Shown here piece by piece: positions 5,414 through 56,852 of a stretch of DNA of 64,000 bases (position 1 is its first letter; every line of letters starts with the position of its first letter). Under the pieces are notes generated by a model, which worked only from the letters and a program-made list of their open reading frames with translations, was not told the DNA's origin and did not search any database. Source of the stretch: Clostridia bacterium (GTDB lineage: Bacteria > Bacillota > Clostridia > Oscillospirales > Acutalibacteraceae); contig JAFQQM010000057.1 of NCBI GenBank assembly GCA_017410585.1, positions 1 through 64,000 on the forward strand. The letters are read 5' to 3'. The translations under genes and the position numbers were made by a program.

Positions 5414-5923
5414 ATGAACGAAAAAGTGATCAAACTGCTCAATGAGCAGATCAATAAAGAACTGTACAGCGCGTATCTGTATATGGATATGGCGATCTTT
5501 TACGATGCGTTGGATCTGGATGGTTATGCGAATTACTATACCATTCAGGCGCAGGAAGAGCGTGACCACGCGTTGCTCTTTATGAAATATATGCAAAATA
5601 ACGGTTTGAAGGTGACGCTGGATGCCATCGCCAAGCCGGATAAAGTGTATGCGACGGTGCTGGATCCGCTGGTGGCGGCTGCCGAGCACGAACGCTACGT
5701 GACCGCGCTGATCAACGCGATCTATCACGAAGCGCATGAGAATAAGGATTACCGTACGATGAAATTCCTGGATTGGTTTGTAGACGAGCAGATGGAAGAG
5801 GAGGACAACGCCGACTCGATGATCAATCGTTACAACCTGTTTGGTCAGGACCCGAAGGGGCTGTACTTATTGGATCAGGAATACGCGACGCGTGTTTACA
5901 CCGCCCCCAGTTTGGCGTTGTAA
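5414..5923 (+). CDS. ftn: Ferritin
   Basis: A 169-residue non-haem ferritin that stores iron as a ferric core in a 24-subunit shell. Visible features are the N-terminal helix NEQINKELYSAYLY with a ferroxidase Glu, EERDHA with Glu and His ligands, and the third-helix Glu in AAEHE. Start follows ATAAGGAGG. It lies just past a strong terminator, so expression probably needs read-through from the perR-rubrerythrin-rubredoxin unit. Placed logically with feo and the PerR genes to sequester iron under peroxide stress. Confidence 0.95.
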   Translation: MNEKVIKLLNEQINKELYSAYLYMDMAIFYDALDLDGYANYYTIQAQEERDHALLFMKYMQNNGLKVTLDAIAKPDKVYATVLDPLVAAAEHERYVTALINAIYHEAHENKDYRTMKFLDWFVDEQMEEEDNADSMINRYNLFGQDPKGLYLLDQEYATRVYTAPSLAL

Positions 5924-5940
5924 TATTTCATTTTCTCCCC

Positions 5941-5982
5941 AAAAGAACCGGCCGGGCGATGCTCGGCCGCGTTCTTTTTTTT
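5941..5982 (+). terminator. Terminator after ferritin
   Basis: AAAAGAAC / GTTCTTTT outer arms with inner CGGCCG repeats and a T run of about eight bases. Confidence 0.8.
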
Positions 5983-5983
5983 G

Positions 5984-6012
5984 TTGCGTTTTTCTCCCAA
6001 ACGTGGTATACT
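5984..6012 (+). promoter_or_regulatory. Promoter of the LOG-family gene
   Basis: TTGCGT at 5984-5989, TATACT at 6007-6012, spacer 17. Its -35 follows directly on the ferritin terminator. Confidence 0.7.
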
Positions 6013-6034
6013 GCAAACGGAAGGAGTTGTTACT

Positions 6035-6610
6035 ATGCACGTTTGTGTTTACGGTGCGTCCAGCCGTGAATTGGCGCCTAATTATATCCGAGCAGGGGAG
6101 GCGCTCGGCAAAGAACTGGCTCGCCGCGGCCATACCTTGGTTTTTGGCGGCGGTACTACCGGTTTGATGGGGGCGGTCGCCCGCGGTGTAACCGCCGAAA
6201 ACGGTCGTATGCTCGGCATTGCGCCACGCTTTTTCAACGTAGACGGCATCTTGTACGAAGCCTGTGACGAATGGCTGTATACCGATACCATGCGGGAACG
6301 TAAACGGTTGATGGAGCAACGTTCGGATGCGTTTGTGATGACGCCGGGCGGCGTTGGTACGTTCGATGAATTTTTTGAGATCCTCACCAACGCCCAGTTG
6401 CAACTGCATCACAAACCCTTGGCTATCCTCAATACCGACGGTTATTTCGATCTGTTGTTGCAATTCTTGCAGACCGGTGTGGAAGAGCGGTTTATGAATC
6501 AAGCAACCCTCGATCTGTTTGCCGTTTTTACCGACCCCGCCGATCTGGTCTCCTATCTGGAGACCGCCGTTCCGACCGCTTCCTCATTGGAGGAAAATAA
6601 GCCGATATAA
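6035..6610 (+). CDS. LOG-family protein (cytokinin riboside phosphoribohydrolase-like)
   Basis: A 191-residue protein of the TIGR00730/LOG family, Rossmann-like fold. The family signature PGGxGTxxE is at residues 104-112 (PGGVGTFDE), with the upstream FGGGTTGLMG loop and an Arg/Lys-rich RERKRLM segment. Members hydrolyse nucleoside 5'-monophosphates to base and ribose 5-phosphate. Start chosen at ATG 6035 after GGAAGGAG. It stands alone between its own promoter and terminator. Confidence 0.9.
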   Translation: MHVCVYGASSRELAPNYIRAGEALGKELARRGHTLVFGGGTTGLMGAVARGVTAENGRMLGIAPRFFNVDGILYEACDEWLYTDTMRERKRLMEQRSDAFVMTPGGVGTFDEFFEILTNAQLQLHHKPLAILNTDGYFDLLLQFLQTGVEERFMNQATLDLFAVFTDPADLVSYLETAVPTASSLEENKPI

Positions 6611-49123: not shown

Positions 49124-49557
49124 AACCGGAAGAGACGAAGGGCACCGCCCGTCAAAACGACAATACCCTTATCAAGGTCTTGACCTTTACAGTGGATAAG
49201 ACGATGGAACTGACCAAATCCAACTCGGTGCTGGGCGAACCGGTCACCGTGGGGGATATGACGGTCATCCCGATCTCCAAACTGTCGCTCGGTTTTGCCG
49301 GCGGCGGTGCGGATATTATGAATGCCGGCAAACGCAAGAAGCAAAATCCTGCCGGTGCGGGCGCGGGCGTTACTATGACCCCCATGAGTTTTCTGGTGAT
49401 CCAAGGGGAAGATATGCGGGTCATCAGCGTGGAGGCTCCGCCAAAGCCGTCGGCGCTGACCGGCGTCATTGATACCGTGGTATCGATGGCGAAGGATGCG
49501 ATGGGCAAAAAAGAACAACCGCAGACGGTGGAAATGCCTGCAGAGGAGCAAGAATGA
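49120..49557 (+). CDS. gerW: GerW-family sporulation protein (YtfJ)
   Basis: A 145-residue protein of the YtfJ/GerW family: GEPVTVGDMTVIPISKLSLGFAGGGAD and GAGVTMTPMSFLVI are conserved blocks. In Bacillus it is needed for proper spore germination. Its presence with cwlD indicates a spore former. Overlaps both neighbours. Confidence 0.9.
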   Translation: MKPEETKGTARQNDNTLIKVLTFTVDKTMELTKSNSVLGEPVTVGDMTVIPISKLSLGFAGGGADIMNAGKRKKQNPAGAGAGVTMTPMSFLVIQGEDMRVISVEAPPKPSALTGVIDTVVSMAKDAMGKKEQPQTVEMPAEEQE

Positions 49558-52427
49558 ATTTAGGTGAAAAGCATTTTGGCTTTACAGCGGTGGGCGTCCG
49601 TCCGGTGCCGGAGATCGGCTCGGAAATGATCGAATTCGTCCACGATAAGACCAAAGCCAAACTCATTTGGATGAATAACCGCGAAGAAAACAAACTGTTT
49701 TCGGTCGCGTTTAAAACGTTACCGTCGGATGACACCGGCGTGTTCCATATCTTGGAACATTCGGTGCTCGGCGGTTCGAAAAACTATCCGGTAAAGGAAC
49801 CGTTCCTTGAACTTCTTAAGAGTTCGATGAACACCTACTTAAACGCGATGACCTTTCCGGACAAAACGGTATTTCCGGTATCCAGCCGGAACGACACCGA
49901 TTTTATGAATCTGGCGCAAGTGTATCTCGATGCCGTGTTTTGCCCCGCTATCTACGACAATCCTTGCATCTTCGCGCAGGAAGGCTGGCATTACGAACTG
50001 CGAGATCCCGCCGACACTGCCACCTTCAAGGGCGTGGTGTTTAATGAAATGAAAGGGGCGCTGTCGTCGGTACACAGCCGCCTGAATTACGAATTGCACC
50101 GGATGCTCTATCCGGACAGTTGCTATCGCTTTGTTTCCGGCGGCGATCCGGCGGCCATCCCCGACCTGACCTACGAGCAATTTTTGGCGACCCATCGCCG
50201 TTTCTACCACCCGTCCAATGCGTATTTTTATCTGGACGGTCCGGTGGATATCAAGCGGCTGCTTCGCTTGATCGATGAGCAGTATCTTGCCGGCTACGAT
50301 GCCTTGGAACCGGATTTCGATATCGTCCGTCAAGGCCCGATCGCCCCGACCGTCAAAGTTTGCGAATACGACGTTGGTGCGGATGAAAGTACCGAAAACC
50401 GCACCCATCTGGTCTACGGCAAACTGCTGAGCGATTGGAGCGACCGCAACAAAAATTTTGCGTTGGCGGTGCTGGGGGATATGTTGACCGCCACCAACGA
50501 CGCGCCCCTGAAACGCGCTCTTCTTGACAGCGGTCTGTGCAACGATATGTCGCTGGGGGTCAATGACGGCACCTATCAGACCGCCGGTGTATTGCATATT
50601 CAAAACACCGAACAACAGCACGGCGAGGCACTCTTGGGGCTGACTCGCGAAACGGTTGCCAAATTGATCGCCGCCGGTCTCGATCGCGACGACCTGTCCG
50701 CTACCATCGACCGGATGGAATTTATTCTGCGTGAAGGCGACGAGCCCAAAGCGCTCGACCGCGATATCAACGTGCTGTCTTCGTGGTTATACGGCGGCGA
50801 CCCGTTGCTGTATATCGGCTGTGACGGATTGTTTGCCTTCCTGCGTGAACAATTACATACCGACTATTACGAACGCTTGCTGTCCGAATGGTTGCTGGAG
50901 GAATCCGGTTCGGCCACGCTGTATCTGGTGCCGTCGGCGCAGTACGGCGAGAAACTTCGTGCCGCCGAGAGTGCGCGTCTGCAAACGGCGCAGAGTGGGT
51001 GGAGCGAGGCGGAGGCCGCGGCGGTGGTGGAACAAAACCGCCGTGTGGACGAATGGCAACGGTCGGAAGATACGCCCGAAGCCTTGGCTACGCTGCCCAA
51101 ACTGCCGCTTTCGGAGGTCAGCGACCGTCCCGAAAAACGCGAAACGACCGTTTCGGACGAAAACGGCGTGACCGTGCTGTGCCATCCCGCCAGAGAAAAG
51201 GGCATCCACTCCGCTTCGCTGTATTTCTCGCTGGCGGATTGCGACGAGGATCAATTGTACGACCTGTCGGTGATGAGCGGTCTGTACGGTCAACTGCCGA
51301 CCCACCAAACCGACAGTGCCTTGTTACAACGCCGTGTGAGCAGTATTCTCGGTGACTTGGTATTTGTGGTCACCGCCTACAGCGAAAAGCATCGGCCGGA
51401 GACCTGCCGGCCTTATCTGGCGGTCAATTTCCGCTATCTGGAGCGCAATCGGGATGCCGCATTTGCGCTGGTATCCGAGATCTTGAACGACACCGACTTT
51501 GACCGCCCTGAGCAGATCACCGAATTGCTCAAGCAAGGGGAAGAGATGACCCGCCAGCGGATGCAATCCGGCGGTCACAACTTCGCAATGCGCCGTGTGC
51601 GCGCCGCCGGATCGGCGGAATGCGCCCTCAAGGAACTGACCGCCGGTTACGAAAGTTATCGCCGCCTGCGTTGCTTGGCGCGTGGGGAAGAGGATCTTTC
51701 GGCCAAGATCGCCGACTATAAACGGTTGGCCGCGTCGGTTATCTGTCGCGGCCGCGTGACCGCTTCGCTGACCGCCTTTGAACAACGACCGCTGTGGCCG
51801 TTGCTGTCTCAACTGCCGCAGGGCGAAGCACTTCCTTCCGATGAACTGTCCTACCGTCTGCCGGTTCCGACAGCGCAGGGCATCAGCACCCCGACGGCGG
51901 TCTCTTTTGCGGCGATGGCGTTGTCGGTGCCGCAGTACGATTCGTCGCTGTGGAACGTTCTCAGCACCATTCTTTCCTTCGATTATCTGTGGAATGAGAT
52001 CCGTGTCAAGGGCGGTGCCTACGGTGCCGGTATGGGGACGGGCAACAGTTACATTCCCGTGTACTATTCCTACCGTGACCCATCGCCGGCAACTTCGTTG
52101 CAGACCTTCCGTAAGACGGTAGAGTTTGTGCGGGAGTTTGTCGCTTCGGTGCCGTCGCTCGATCCGTTTATTATCAGCACGGTCGCTAAGTTGGAACCGT
52201 TGCAATCCGATGCATCCATCGGTGCGTTGGCAGACGAATGCTGGTTCCGCGGTCTGACCGAGGAAATGCGGATAGAGGCTCGACGCCGCCTGCTGTCGCT
52301 GAAACCCGCCGACCTGCTGGAAGCGTGTGACTACCTGCAAAACGAGATCGCCTGCTGTGTGGTAGGGTCGGAAACGGCGCTGGCTACCTGCGAAGACGAA
52401 AATCTGACCGTCGTTTCTGTCGGTTAA
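49554..52427 (+). CDS. M16C-family (PreP/Cym1-like) metallopeptidase
   Basis: A 957-residue inverzincin. Inverted zinc motif H65-x2-E68-H69 in HILEHSVLGGS with the distal Glu in VVFNEMKGALSS. Four homologous domains in two halves joined by a hinge, as in presequence peptidases. It degrades peptides in the cytosol. No signal peptide. Starts in the stop of gerW (ATGA). Confidence 0.93.
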   Translation: MNLGEKHFGFTAVGVRPVPEIGSEMIEFVHDKTKAKLIWMNNREENKLFSVAFKTLPSDDTGVFHILEHSVLGGSKNYPVKEPFLELLKSSMNTYLNAMTFPDKTVFPVSSRNDTDFMNLAQVYLDAVFCPAIYDNPCIFAQEGWHYELRDPADTATFKGVVFNEMKGALSSVHSRLNYELHRMLYPDSCYRFVSGGDPAAIPDLTYEQFLATHRRFYHPSNAYFYLDGPVDIKRLLRLIDEQYLAGYDALEPDFDIVRQGPIAPTVKVCEYDVGADESTENRTHLVYGKLLSDWSDRNKNFALAVLGDMLTATNDAPLKRALLDSGLCNDMSLGVNDGTYQTAGVLHIQNTEQQHGEALLGLTRETVAKLIAAGLDRDDLSATIDRMEFILREGDEPKALDRDINVLSSWLYGGDPLLYIGCDGLFAFLREQLHTDYYERLLSEWLLEESGSATLYLVPSAQYGEKLRAAESARLQTAQSGWSEAEAAAVVEQNRRVDEWQRSEDTPEALATLPKLPLSEVSDRPEKRETTVSDENGVTVLCHPAREKGIHSASLYFSLADCDEDQLYDLSVMSGLYGQLPTHQTDSALLQRRVSSILGDLVFVVTAYSEKHRPETCRPYLAVNFRYLERNRDAAFALVSEILNDTDFDRPEQITELLKQGEEMTRQRMQSGGHNFAMRRVRAAGSAECALKELTAGYESYRRLRCLARGEEDLSAKIADYKRLAASVICRGRVTASLTAFEQRPLWPLLSQLPQGEALPSDELSYRLPVPTAQGISTPTAVSFAAMALSVPQYDSSLWNVLSTILSFDYLWNEIRVKGGAYGAGMGTGNSYIPVYYSYRDPSPATSLQTFRKTVEFVREFVASVPSLDPFIISTVAKLEPLQSDASIGALADECWFRGLTEEMRIEARRRLLSLKPADLLEACDYLQNEIACCVVGSETALATCEDENLTVVSVG

Positions 52428-52441
52428 GAGAGAGGTAAACA

Positions 52442-53716
52442 ATGTATACGTCTGAAACGGAAAAGAATTTCCTTGCCATTTTGGAAGAAGAACTCATCCC
52501 CGCTATGGGTTGTACCGAGCCGATCGCGCTGGCGTATGCCGCTTCTCGCGCCCGCTCACAGTTGACCGCCGCACCGACCGCTATTGTGGCTCGTTGCAGC
52601 GGCAATATGATCAAGAACGTTCGTTGCGTGTCCATTCCCAATTCCGGCGGTCTCATCGGCATTGAGGCGGCGGTGGTGCTGGGCGCTTTTGCGGGCGATC
52701 ATACCCGTGGGATGGAAGTACTGGAAGGGGTGACCGCCGAACGCCGCGGCGCGGCTGTGGCGTTTTTGGAAGGCAACGGCTGTACGGTGGAATACCTCAA
52801 TTCGGACATTCCGTTACACTTTGTCATTGAGATGACCGACGGCACCGATACGGTATCCATCGAGGTGCGGCATTCGCATATGAACGTGGTCTCGGTGGTC
52901 AAAAACGGCAAAACGCTGTTTTCCGGTGAAGAGGCGGCCGCCGTTGAGTGCGCCGACCGTTCCGGTCTGGATATCGCCGGTATGAAGCAATTTGCGGATA
53001 CCGTCCCGTTGGAGAGCATCAAACGCCTTCTCGACCGCCAGATCCGCTGTAATATGGATATCGCCTACGAGGGAATGTCCGGCGAATACGGCCTCAATAT
53101 CGGTCGCACTATTCGCGCTTGCTATACCGATGGTGTCGTTACCCGTATGAAAGCGTATGCGGCGGCGGCATCCGAGGCGCGTATGAGCGGGTGCGATATG
53201 CCGGTCATCATCAATTCCGGCAGCGGTAACCAAGGGATCGCCTCGTCGGTGCCGGTCATCGTCTACGCCCGCGAGAAAGATATCCCGCAGGAGAGGCTGT
53301 ACCGTGCGCTGGCATTCTCGGCTCTCCTGACCATCCACCAAAAGGATCACATCGGCAAACTTTCCGCTTTTTGCGGTGCGGTTTCGGCATCCTGTGCGGC
53401 TTGTGCGGCGGTGACCTATATGGTCGGCGGATCGGTGGAACAGATCAAGGCAACCATCGATAACACCTTGGCCAACATCCCCGGTATTTTATGCGACGGT
53501 GCCAAGATCTCCTGCGCCGCCAAGATCGCTACCAGTATTGATGCCGCGATGATGGCGCATTATCTTGCGATGGGCGGTAAGGCGTACGAGGCTTTTACCG
53601 GCATTCTCAAGGAAGAGGCAGAAGAGACGATCAGTTGTGTCGGCTATATCGGTAAGATCGGTATGCGCGAGACCGACCGTGAGATCGTCCGTTTGATGCT
53701 CGGTAAGGAGGAATAA
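52442..53716 (+). CDS. L-cysteine desulfidase (CyuA/UPF0597)
   Basis: A 424-residue protein of the YhaM/CyuA family. AMGCTEPIALAYA (C24) is the family signature; further Cys residues (KISCAAKIA, CAACAAVTY) are candidate [4Fe-4S] ligands. The family breaks L-cysteine into pyruvate, ammonia and H2S; some members act on L-serine. It starts 14 bases after the peptidase stop and is followed by a thiol redox protein, which favours cysteine as substrate. Confidence 0.9.
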   Translation: MYTSETEKNFLAILEEELIPAMGCTEPIALAYAASRARSQLTAAPTAIVARCSGNMIKNVRCVSIPNSGGLIGIEAAVVLGAFAGDHTRGMEVLEGVTAERRGAAVAFLEGNGCTVEYLNSDIPLHFVIEMTDGTDTVSIEVRHSHMNVVSVVKNGKTLFSGEEAAAVECADRSGLDIAGMKQFADTVPLESIKRLLDRQIRCNMDIAYEGMSGEYGLNIGRTIRACYTDGVVTRMKAYAAAASEARMSGCDMPVIINSGSGNQGIASSVPVIVYAREKDIPQERLYRALAFSALLTIHQKDHIGKLSAFCGAVSASCAACAAVTYMVGGSVEQIKATIDNTLANIPGILCDGAKISCAAKIATSIDAAMMAHYLAMGGKAYEAFTGILKEEAEETISCVGYIGKIGMRETDREIVRLMLGKEE

Positions 53717-53719
53717 CCA

Positions 53720-53926
53720 ATGGCTGTACGTTTAAATGACAATCCGGAAGTGGTTGCCCTCATCAAGCAGGGTCTGAAGGAAAAAGGCGGCTATTGTCCT
53801 TGCCGCCGCGAAATGACCGAGGACAACAAATGTATCTGTAAGGAATTCCGTGAGCAGATAGCCGATCCCAACTATGAGGGTTACTGCCACTGTATGCTGT
53901 ATTATAAGTCGAAAGACGAAGAATAA
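53720..53926 (+). CDS. Ferredoxin-thioredoxin reductase-like small protein
   Basis: A 68-residue protein with C26-P-C28-R, C38-x-C40 and C56-H-C58. These six Cys match the catalytic subunit of ferredoxin-thioredoxin reductase, which uses a [4Fe-4S] cluster to reduce a disulfide, but spacing differs (9 and 15 residues against 16 and 8 in plants). It may pass electrons from ferredoxin to a thiol. Starts four bases after the desulfidase stop. Confidence 0.88.
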   Translation: MAVRLNDNPEVVALIKQGLKEKGGYCPCRREMTEDNKCICKEFREQIADPNYEGYCHCMLYYKSKDEE

Positions 53927-53941
53927 AAAGGAGTGGATTTT

Positions 53942-54688
53942 ATGGAATTCAGTGTCAACCATCCGATCTTGTTCGTGCTGGTCGGCATCGTCATTGCCGC
54001 CGTATTGGGGCAATCGGTGTTCTTCTTGGTGCGAGCCTACCGTCGTGCCAAGGCGATCGGTATGGATATGTCGATGATCAAAAAGACCATCAGTTCATCG
54101 GCAATCTTTACCATTGCTCCGGCGGTATCCATTTTGGTCGGCGTCATCGTGCTGTCGAAAGCCCTTGGCGTTCCCGCCCCGTGGTTGCGTTTGTCGGTCA
54201 TTGGTTCGCTGTCTTACGAGACCATCGCCGCCAGCACCACGCTGGAGGCACTCGGTCAGGCCGCCAGCGAGACCATCAGCGATGCTTCGCAGTACGTGAC
54301 GGTGATGTGGGTCATGACTCTTGGTATTTTGATCGGTCTGATCTTGGTACCGTTGCTGACCAAAAAGATCCAGAGCGGGATCATCAATATGGAAAAGCGT
54401 GACAAGAAATGGAGCGAGATCTTTAACAACGCGATGTTTATGGGTATGATCTCGGCGTTTCTCGGCTACGTGTTCTGCGACGTGAAGAAATCCTTCTTCG
54501 GTGACTTCACCAGCCTGATTCCGGTGGTGGTAATGGTTGTGGCGGCACTCTTGATGGTGATCTGCGGGTTGCTGGCGGGCAAGTTGAAGGCACGTTGGCT
54601 GACCGATTATGCCTTACCCATCAGTCTGGTCGGCGGTATGGCGGCTGCCATTCCGATCACCGATTGGCTGACGGCGTTGACGAAGTGA
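53942..54688 (+). CDS. DUF5058 membrane protein
   Basis: A 248-residue protein with about six membrane helices. FSVNHPILFVLVG at the start and SVFFLVRAYRRAK are typical of DUF5058. Function unknown; possible transporter subunit. ATG 53942 follows AAGGAGTGG. Paired with the next membrane gene. Confidence 0.85.
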   Translation: MEFSVNHPILFVLVGIVIAAVLGQSVFFLVRAYRRAKAIGMDMSMIKKTISSSAIFTIAPAVSILVGVIVLSKALGVPAPWLRLSVIGSLSYETIAASTTLEALGQAASETISDASQYVTVMWVMTLGILIGLILVPLLTKKIQSGIINMEKRDKKWSEIFNNAMFMGMISAFLGYVFCDVKKSFFGDFTSLIPVVVMVVAALLMVICGLLAGKLKARWLTDYALPISLVGGMAAAIPITDWLTALTK

Positions 54689-54707
54689 GAAAGGTGGGTG
54701 CTGTGTT

Positions 54708-55373
54708 ATGAAAAAGAATATGACCTATATGGACAGCGTCCACTTCTACGGACGTCTGTGGGGCTGGATCCTGTTGCTGATCATCGTTTCTGTGCCCACC
54801 ATCACCTGCATTGTGTTTCAGGCGGTGCCGCAATGGGCGGCACTTGGCAAGGGCCTTGTCGCCGTGTTGCCGATGTATTGGGCTGTCGGTTTAGTCGAGG
54901 TGTTTACTTACGTGCCGATGCTCGGTGCGGGCGGAACCTACCTGTCTTTCGTGACCGGTAATATTTCTAACCTCAAGTTGCCGGTGGCGTTGGATGCGCT
55001 GGAGCGCGCTAAGGTCAAGCCCAGTTCGGAAGAGGGCGAGATCGTTTCTACCATCTCCATTGCGGTGTCCAGTATCGTAACGACGGTGATCATCATTATC
55101 GGTGTTATCCTCATCGTCCCGCTGACGCCTATTTTGGAAAATCCGGCGCTGACCGCCGCCTTTGACCAGATGTTGCCGGCGCTGTTCGGTGGCTTGGGTG
55201 TGGTGTTTGTGTCCAAGAACCCGAAACTGGCGATCGCCCCCATCATCCTGATGCTGACGCTGTTTATCGCCATCGATGCACTCAATCAAGGCACGGTCGG
55301 TGTGATGGTGCCGGTCGGTGTGCTGTTCACCATTGCGGTGGCGCGTATTCTCTATAAGAAGGGGAAACTGTAA
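54708..55373 (+). CDS. Uncharacterised membrane protein, likely partner of DUF5058
   Basis: A 221-residue protein with about six hydrophobic segments; GAGGTYLSFVTGNISNLKLP is a polar, glycine-rich loop and SSEEGEIVSTISIAVSSI might be a helix hairpin. No family recognised with certainty. Similar number of helices as the preceding gene suggests a two-subunit carrier. It overlaps the next gene by one base (TAATG). Confidence 0.78.
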   Translation: MKKNMTYMDSVHFYGRLWGWILLLIIVSVPTITCIVFQAVPQWAALGKGLVAVLPMYWAVGLVEVFTYVPMLGAGGTYLSFVTGNISNLKLPVALDALERAKVKPSSEEGEIVSTISIAVSSIVTTVIIIIGVILIVPLTPILENPALTAAFDQMLPALFGGLGVVFVSKNPKLAIAPIILMLTLFIAIDALNQGTVGVMVPVGVLFTIAVARILYKKGKL

Positions 55374-56812
55374 TGATCGCGTTGTATATTGCTTTAGGCG
55401 CTTTGGCGCTGTTTATTGGCGTTTTGCTGGTGCGTACGCTGGCTTTCAAGCCGAAGGCGAACGCCCATCCGGTAGATACCGCCGCGGTGGAATTTGACCG
55501 CGACAAGGCGATTGCCAACCTGCAGACGTTGGTTCGCTGTAAGACGATCTCATACCGCGACTCTTCGCTGGAGGATGCCGCCGAATTTGATAAATTGCTG
55601 TCTTCTCTGCCGGAACTGTTCCCGCACGTCTATGCGACCTGCACGGTGCAACAGTTGCCGGATCGTGCGTTGCTGTTTCAGTGGCAGGGTAAGTCCGCCG
55701 GTGATCCGGCGGTGCTGATGGCGCACTACGACGTGGTGCCGGTCGATGAGGCCAAATGGGAAAAACCGCCGTTTTCGGGTATCATCGAGGACGGCGTGCT
55801 GTGGGGCAGAGGTACGCTGGATACCAAGGTCACCTTCAGTAGCGTGTTGACGGCCGCCGATCACCTCATCTCTGCCGGTTTCCAACCCGAAAACGACATC
55901 TACTTCGCCTTTTCCGGCGGGGAAGAGATCAACGGCCCCGGTGCGTTGCATATCGTCAACTATTTCAAAGAACAGGGTATCACCCCGTCGCTGGTGGTTG
56001 ACGAGGGCGGTGCCGTGGTGGAAAACGTATTTCCCGGCGTTACGCTCCCTTGCGCGATGATCGGTATTGCCGAAAAGGGTATGCTCGACGCGCAGTACCG
56101 TTGCGAGTCGCAGGGCGGTCACGCTTCCGCTCCCAAACCGCATACGCCGGTCGGACTGCTTTCTGCCGCCTGCTGTAAGGTGGAAAACAACCCCTTCCCG
56201 TTCCATATCACCAAGCCGGTGGCGGCAATGTTTGATACGCTCGGCCGCCATTCCAATTTCCTCTACCGGATGATCTTTGCCAATCTCTGGTGCTTCAAGG
56301 GTGTGCTCAACCTGCTGGCAAAGAAGAGCGGCGGCGAGATGAACGCGCTGTTGCGTACGACGGTGGCTTTTACTCAGATGAACGGCAGTGTCGCTTCCAA
56401 CGTCATTCCGACCGAGGCAACGATGGTCTCCAATATGCGTTTAAATCCCGAGGATACCGTCGAATCGGCGTTGGAACACCTGCGTAAGACGGTGGGGGAC
56501 GACCGCATCGAGATCACCGCTCTGCACGGCATCAACCCCAGCCGCATTTCCACCACCGATTGCGAGGGTTGGCGGCGTGTGGCTTCGTCGGTGGCGGCCA
56601 CTTGGCAGGGTTGCGTAGTGACTCCTTACCTGATGGTGCAATGTTCCGATAGTCGTCACTACGGGGCCATTTCGGATAAAGTGTACCGCTTCTCGGCAAT
56701 GGACCTCACCTCGGAGGAACGTGCCACCATCCACGGCAACAACGAGCGCATCCGCCTCGATTGCCTCTGCCGTGCGGTGGAATTCTATATTCGCTTGATG
56801 AAACAATGCTAA
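55373..56812 (+). CDS. M20-family peptidase, membrane-anchored
   Basis: A 479-residue protein with an N-terminal membrane helix (about 2-22) and the M20 fold. Zinc ligands appear as H118 in MAHYDVVP, Asp in GRGTLDTK and the EE pair in SGGEEINGPG; the lid domain follows (about 250-370). Members hydrolyse dipeptides or N-acyl amino acids (PM20D1-like). Whether the active site faces outward is not clear from sequence. Last gene of the cluster. Confidence 0.88.
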   Translation: MIALYIALGALALFIGVLLVRTLAFKPKANAHPVDTAAVEFDRDKAIANLQTLVRCKTISYRDSSLEDAAEFDKLLSSLPELFPHVYATCTVQQLPDRALLFQWQGKSAGDPAVLMAHYDVVPVDEAKWEKPPFSGIIEDGVLWGRGTLDTKVTFSSVLTAADHLISAGFQPENDIYFAFSGGEEINGPGALHIVNYFKEQGITPSLVVDEGGAVVENVFPGVTLPCAMIGIAEKGMLDAQYRCESQGGHASAPKPHTPVGLLSAACCKVENNPFPFHITKPVAAMFDTLGRHSNFLYRMIFANLWCFKGVLNLLAKKSGGEMNALLRTTVAFTQMNGSVASNVIPTEATMVSNMRLNPEDTVESALEHLRKTVGDDRIEITALHGINPSRISTTDCEGWRRVASSVAATWQGCVVTPYLMVQCSDSRHYGAISDKVYRFSAMDLTSEERATIHGNNERIRLDCLCRAVEFYIRLMKQC

Positions 56813-56852
56813 AAAGAACTCCCTTTGGAATTTCCAAAGGGAGTTCTTTTTA
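56811..56852. terminator. Bidirectional terminator
   Basis: AAAAGAACTCCCTTTGGAA / TTCCAAAGGGAGTTCTTTTT, nearly uninterrupted palindrome. Confidence 0.92.

Follow-up and report, generated by a model that had tools for sequence, protein, structure and literature searches.

We analysed a 64,000-nucleotide stretch of the Clostridia bacterium contig JAFQQM010000057.1 (hereafter the window), in which five plus-strand genes encode, in order, the L-cysteine desulfidase CyuA, a small FTR-like protein, the membrane protein DUF5058, a second membrane protein (MP2) and an M20 metallohydrolase. We report here the genes and their diagnostic residues, a conserved DUF5058-MP2-hydrolase unit, and a lineage-specific block to which CyuA and the FTR-like protein belong. 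Judged from gene neighbourhoods, the conserved unit is DUF5058-MP2-hydrolase and not a thiol pathway, and we consider it rather probable that DUF5058 and MP2 together make up a two-subunit secondary carrier importing amide-linked amino acids, which the partner hydrolase would cleave in the cytoplasm. A first-pass annotation had read the five genes as one pathway for importing, hydrolysing and desulfurating a cysteine-containing peptide or conjugate; its pairing of a two-gene membrane unit with a predicted cytoplasmic peptidase or amide hydrolase stands, while its thiol specificity does not hold for the module in general. DUF5058 has no assigned function and MP2 no Pfam family, and their linkage to several unrelated families of amide hydrolase provides a specific, testable prediction for both, namely that they bring in N-acyl amino acids or short peptides.

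The conserved unit and its hydrolases

The DUF5058 gene (53942..54688, plus strand) matches PF16481 over profile positions 1-222 with 237 bits against a cut-off of 28.2 bits. The MP2 gene (54708..55373, plus strand) comes next, and scans of MP2 and 77 relatives found no Pfam family for it. Across the roughly 100 DUF5058/MP2 loci that we read overall, MP2 always follows DUF5058, and in the phylum sample every genome with DUF5058 above cut-off also has MP2, presence matching genome by genome. The triad with M20 is complete in 63 of the 67 named contigs retrieved by the DUF5058 search, the other four ending at a contig edge; the genes stand a median of 12 and 3 bases apart, and in one locus (L037) an opposite-strand gene lies between MP2 and M20. 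Among 31 phylum loci, an M20 gene stands beside the pair in 23 and an unrelated amide hydrolase gene in 4 (M42 in L105, Amidohydro_1 in L104, Amidohydro_3 in L157 and C45/AAT in L158), for a total of 27; as a control for this linkage, only 4 of 63 CyuA loci have an M20 or M42 gene at a distance of three genes or fewer. A PGA_cap (CapA/PgsA-like) gene directly follows DUF5058-MP2 at L102:9648-11024 and at L154:2840-4180, and one of these two loci also has an M20 gene. In L160, an MP2 fragment at a contig end has beside it an ATC-hydrolase-like gene (5454-6215), whose family takes its name from a reaction that forms cysteine.

The pair also extends beyond the phylum, with MP2 relatives on plasmids of haloarchaea, Paracoccus, Vibrio and actinobacteria and DUF5058 in each of these records (12 of 12). 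Five haloarchaeal plasmid loci (L299-L303) have the order DUF5058-MP2-amidohydrolase and Paracoccus has amidohydrolase-DUF5058-MP2; the amidohydrolases tested from both belong to the TIGR01891 group, which includes hippurate hydrolases. Four of the five haloarchaeal loci adjoin genes for glycine cleavage, lipoate or serine hydroxymethyltransferase functions, a context that suggests acylglycines or glycyl peptides as substrates there. Transposases lie on either side of the Vibrio copy, near which no hydrolase is annotated; the MP2 matches from actinobacteria are partial. MP2-like sequences also occur in four short, unannotated bacteriophage-labelled records from human faeces (MT836200, MT839493, MT835800 and MT838272), which are possibly bacterial DNA.

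The M20 gene of the window (55373..56812, plus strand) encodes a catalytic domain (PF01546, 94 bits) and a dimerisation domain (PF07687, 41 bits), and falls in the PRK08262 group (NF006113, E value 1e-100). It shares the domain order of that group and matches it at full length over 460 residues, but scores 338 bits against the 503-bit NCBI equivalog cut-off; the set to which it belongs also differs from PRK08262-group peptidases in a predicted inward-facing N-terminal anchor. One N-terminal transmembrane helix was found in all 70 PRK08262-type partners, followed in most by an R-x-x-x-F-x-P motif. Lysine and arginine residues average 0.1 before the helix and 3.4 within the 15 residues after it, a charge pattern present in 69 of the 70; under the positive-inside rule, this pattern predicts a cytoplasmic catalytic domain. 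Among the other partners sampled (M20, M42, amidohydrolase and C45), none has a signal peptide, an anchor or a hydrophobic N-terminal segment; the two PGA_cap proteins have an N-terminal segment that is nearly hydrophobic enough. The predicted cytoplasmic location of the partner hydrolases favours import followed by cleavage.

We infer transport itself from gene linkage; its direction, the class of its substrate and any passage of cysteine from M20 on to CyuA are inferences too. As proposed, DUF5058 and MP2 would form a previously undescribed secondary carrier whose substrates, N-acyl amino acids or short peptides, bear a free carboxylate, and the hydrolase encoded by the adjacent gene would cleave the imported substrate in the cytoplasm, thereby maintaining an inward gradient; the partner in this clade would be an M20 enzyme anchored at the inner face of the membrane. 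Escherichia coli offers a parallel in AbgT, an importer encoded beside AbgA/AbgB, a cytoplasmic M20 enzyme that cuts p-aminobenzoyl-glutamate, the amide taken up. In both systems the membrane gene or genes adjoin the gene of a cytoplasmic, or predicted cytoplasmic, amide-cleaving enzyme, but AbgT is a single-gene carrier, whereas DUF5058-MP2 is encoded by two genes and has hydrolase partners that are interchangeable across folds; no relation between it and AbgT was detected. A broader version of the proposal, in which DUF5058-MP2 is a new two-subunit carrier class of bacteria and archaea for amide-linked amino acids, served by interchangeable cytoplasmic hydrolases, docking the anchored M20 in this clade so as to couple import and cleavage, and feeding the glycine cleavage system in haloarchaea, is more tentative, and we place it a little short of an even chance.

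The M16C-CyuA-FTR block

The five genes are the tail of a longer directon. A gene for an M16C (PreP-type) peptidase (49554..52427, plus strand; PF08367, PF05193 and PF22516), which the first-pass annotation did not mention, ends 14 bases upstream of CyuA and overlaps the preceding YtfJ/GerW gene by 4 bases. An M16C-CyuA-FTR block sits between the YtfJ gene and the triad, in a single directon, both in the window species and in one sister. These two are the only cases of CyuA and FTR beside the triad among the approximately 100 loci; among the 67 named loci, of which 56 have more than 2 kb of upstream sequence where CyuA and FTR could show, only L082, whose species is closely related to that of the window, has them. 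Genome G300 has M16C-CyuA-FTR before DUF5058 on a single 4.6-kb contig that runs from M16C into DUF5058. In two sister genomes from other members of the genus, G299 (L264) and G303 (L265), the corresponding site reads prmC-DUF2953-YtfJ-DUF5058-MP2-M20, and M16C, CyuA and FTR are missing from it. The comparison with sister genomes marks the five-gene cluster as a lineage-specific composite, whose M16C-CyuA-FTR block may have been gained in this lineage or lost in the sisters. A tidy operon in a single genome can thus be such a composite, and pathway inference from this operon alone would have placed the carrier in thiol metabolism. The first-pass annotation had proposed comparing DUF5058 loci with those of CyuA and M20; the outcome was largely the one that it had named as contrary to its account, namely DUF5058 and its partner lying mainly with non-thiol genes, and a cysteine-peptide pathway is not the general role of the module.

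One explanation for the joining of the two halves is that M16C-CyuA-FTR came to lie in a constitutive operon beside prmC, the halves having unrelated jobs. This explanation bears solely on how the two halves are connected and can hold alongside the carrier reading; we give it about an even chance. It is consistent with the restriction of the link to two closely related species, with the presence in the same directon of the functionally unrelated prmC and YtfJ genes, and with genome G301 (L263:5561-8731), in which an FTR-like gene stands directly before an M16C gene and neither CyuA nor the triad is close by. Against it, the arrangement has been kept between two species whose CyuA proteins are 89% identical. 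The FTR-M16C order in G301 echoes the M16C-CyuA-FTR block of the window.

CyuA itself (52442..53716, plus strand; PF03313) is a full-length match to the solved L-cysteine desulfidase (9he0/9fsl): residues 12-423 align with residues 13-397 of the 9he0 chain, the Methanococcus maripaludis enzyme with both its domains, at an E value of 3e-35. Catalytic Cys23 and Glu25 (MmCyuA numbering) set desulfidases apart and are not conserved in serine dehydratases (PMC12647591). The GCTE motif of the window protein (C24/E26) aligns with the GCTE of the solved enzyme, the three cluster cysteines are kept (FCGAVS, ILCDGAKISCA), and K361, N263 and R247 are also conserved; every catalytic residue of a cysteine desulfidase is thus present, in agreement with the original identification of the protein as CyuA-type. 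The enzyme would convert free cysteine of any source to pyruvate, ammonia and sulfide. In E. coli, CyuP is a cysteine-specific importer in an operon with CyuA (PMC9040844). The window resembles that system in having a desulfidase co-operonic with a membrane transport gene, in the setting of anaerobic growth, but its membrane genes are DUF5058-MP2, which elsewhere are paired with amide hydrolases without CyuA. In other phylum genomes (L168, L169, L172, L196 and L199), CyuA lies directly downstream of M20 genes of two different kinds, and these loci are a separate hint of peptide-derived cysteine catabolism.

The FTR-like gene (53720..53926, plus strand) encodes 68 aa with the motif CPC-x9-CxC-x15-CHC and passes PF02943 marginally (22.3 bits against a cut-off of 22.0). 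All six motif cysteines of the FTR catalytic subunit are present in the order CxC, CxC, CHC and are kept in aligned relatives; the differences are its length (about 65-70 residues in this form), the motif spacings of 9 and 15, and the absence of any noticed variable-subunit gene next to it. Of 197 genomes of the order, 27 have a PF02943 match (L266-L292), and the short form accounts for nearly all of these. In 16 of 25 FTR-like loci examined (those outside the genome of the window; trimmed reading frames overlap in a few), a thioredoxin gene is found on the same strand no more than 400 bases away, and the client is therefore probably thioredoxin rather than imported cystine, contrary to the earlier suggestion that the protein reduces an imported disulfide. 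The window gene has no adjacent thioredoxin gene, and its genome encodes a thioredoxin and a TrxB-like protein elsewhere. The FTR-like protein most likely would reduce thioredoxin with electrons from ferredoxin, serving the cell generally, and the conserved 65-70-residue form, beside thioredoxin in most genomes examined, suggests a minimal thioredoxin reductase that depends on ferredoxin and lacks a variable subunit. On our reading, full-length TrxB matches are missing more often from genomes with FTR, but the genome of the window has both, so no conclusion was drawn on FTR as a stand-in for the NADPH thioredoxin reductase. CyuA-FTR as a recurring pair was rejected, the FTR motif occurring near CyuA in 0 of the 63 other CyuA loci. 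A literature search on FTR-like proteins or paired-DUF carriers returned nothing usable.

Weighing the carrier reading

The two membrane proteins were also compared at the level of predicted structure. AlphaFold single-chain models are all-helical, with a predicted local distance difference test (pLDDT) of 85 for DUF5058 and 83 for MP2 and a predicted template modelling score (pTM) of 0.65-0.66, although such models may be wrong if the two proteins fold as a complex. Foldseek found no match below an E value of 0.001 for either model and VIA-align gave Z scores of at most 5.7, so that no known fold was convincingly assigned; these null results for predicted models neither indicate a new fold nor exclude a known one. 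No solved relative of DUF5058 was found, and its similarity to CitS (E value 0.0026) falls far below cut-off. A common origin of DUF5058 and MP2 was considered and not adopted: their profile similarity is weak and does not clearly exceed that of controls, hhalign giving P values of 0.02-0.04 and 7 of 150 block-shuffled controls doing equally well. DUF5058 is named in no paper found by our literature search.

Several observations weigh against the proposal that DUF5058-MP2 is an importer of amide-linked amino acids. Sequence and structure comparisons matched neither protein to a known transporter, so that a channel, receptor or exporter is possible; no hydrolase gene lies next to the pair in L095 and L106, the PGA_cap protein is the sole candidate in L102, and in L160 it is a fragment of MP2 that stands beside the ATC-hydrolase-like gene. 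Several phylum loci come from one genus, and the 31 are therefore not all independent. CyuA is commoner in genomes with MP2 (12 of 24, against 57 of 275 others; p 0.004, kinship ignored), and some tie to cysteine use is thus possible; the M16C-CyuA-FTR block, too, may be retained through functional coupling.

These last points touch on the thiol-scavenging explanation, in which the carrier imports a cysteine peptide or conjugate (Cys-Gly, gamma-Glu-Cys, N-acetylcysteine), M20 frees the cysteine, FTR keeps thiols reduced and CyuA ferments the product. The single directon with small gaps in two species, the complete CyuA, the enrichment just described, and three genomes (G298, G201 and G266) in which CyuA adjoins further M20 enzymes are in its favour. 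We nevertheless consider it unlikely, because the other DUF5058 loci read lack CyuA and FTR, the sister genomes have the triad alone at the same site, the FTR-like protein pairs with thioredoxin, and the haloarchaeal triads adjoin glycine-cleavage genes; in the window lineage, a cysteine-containing substrate is possible. Less likely still is that DUF5058-MP2 exports the hydrolase product or forms a channel for it: the sequence gives no direction and the pair has no known transporter relatives, but the partner hydrolases share amide chemistry while releasing many different products, those sampled appear cytoplasmic so that their substrate must be brought in, and genes for PucR-type and sigma-54 regulators adjoin some of the loci.

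Layout of the directon

The five genes of the first-pass annotation are all present on the plus strand, with intergenic gaps of 3, 15, 19 and -1 bases; the last three agree with the values first given, whereas the first had been put at 4. They do not form a stand-alone cluster, since prmC, DUF2953, YtfJ and M16C genes of the same orientation precede them, either overlapping or closely spaced. The full order is prmC-DUF2953-YtfJ-M16C-CyuA-FTR-DUF5058-MP2-M20, and the directon starts at prmC or earlier. A consensus scan, whose overall matches were at chance level, found no promoter-like site in the gap between M16C and CyuA, and Rfam found no riboswitch in the window, its sole match being a tRNA elsewhere in the stretch. 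The single terminator described for the cluster is borne out as a strong one, a hairpin with a 20-pair stem and a T-rich tail (56810..56852, plus strand), which is common to the directon and a convergent GH25 gene.

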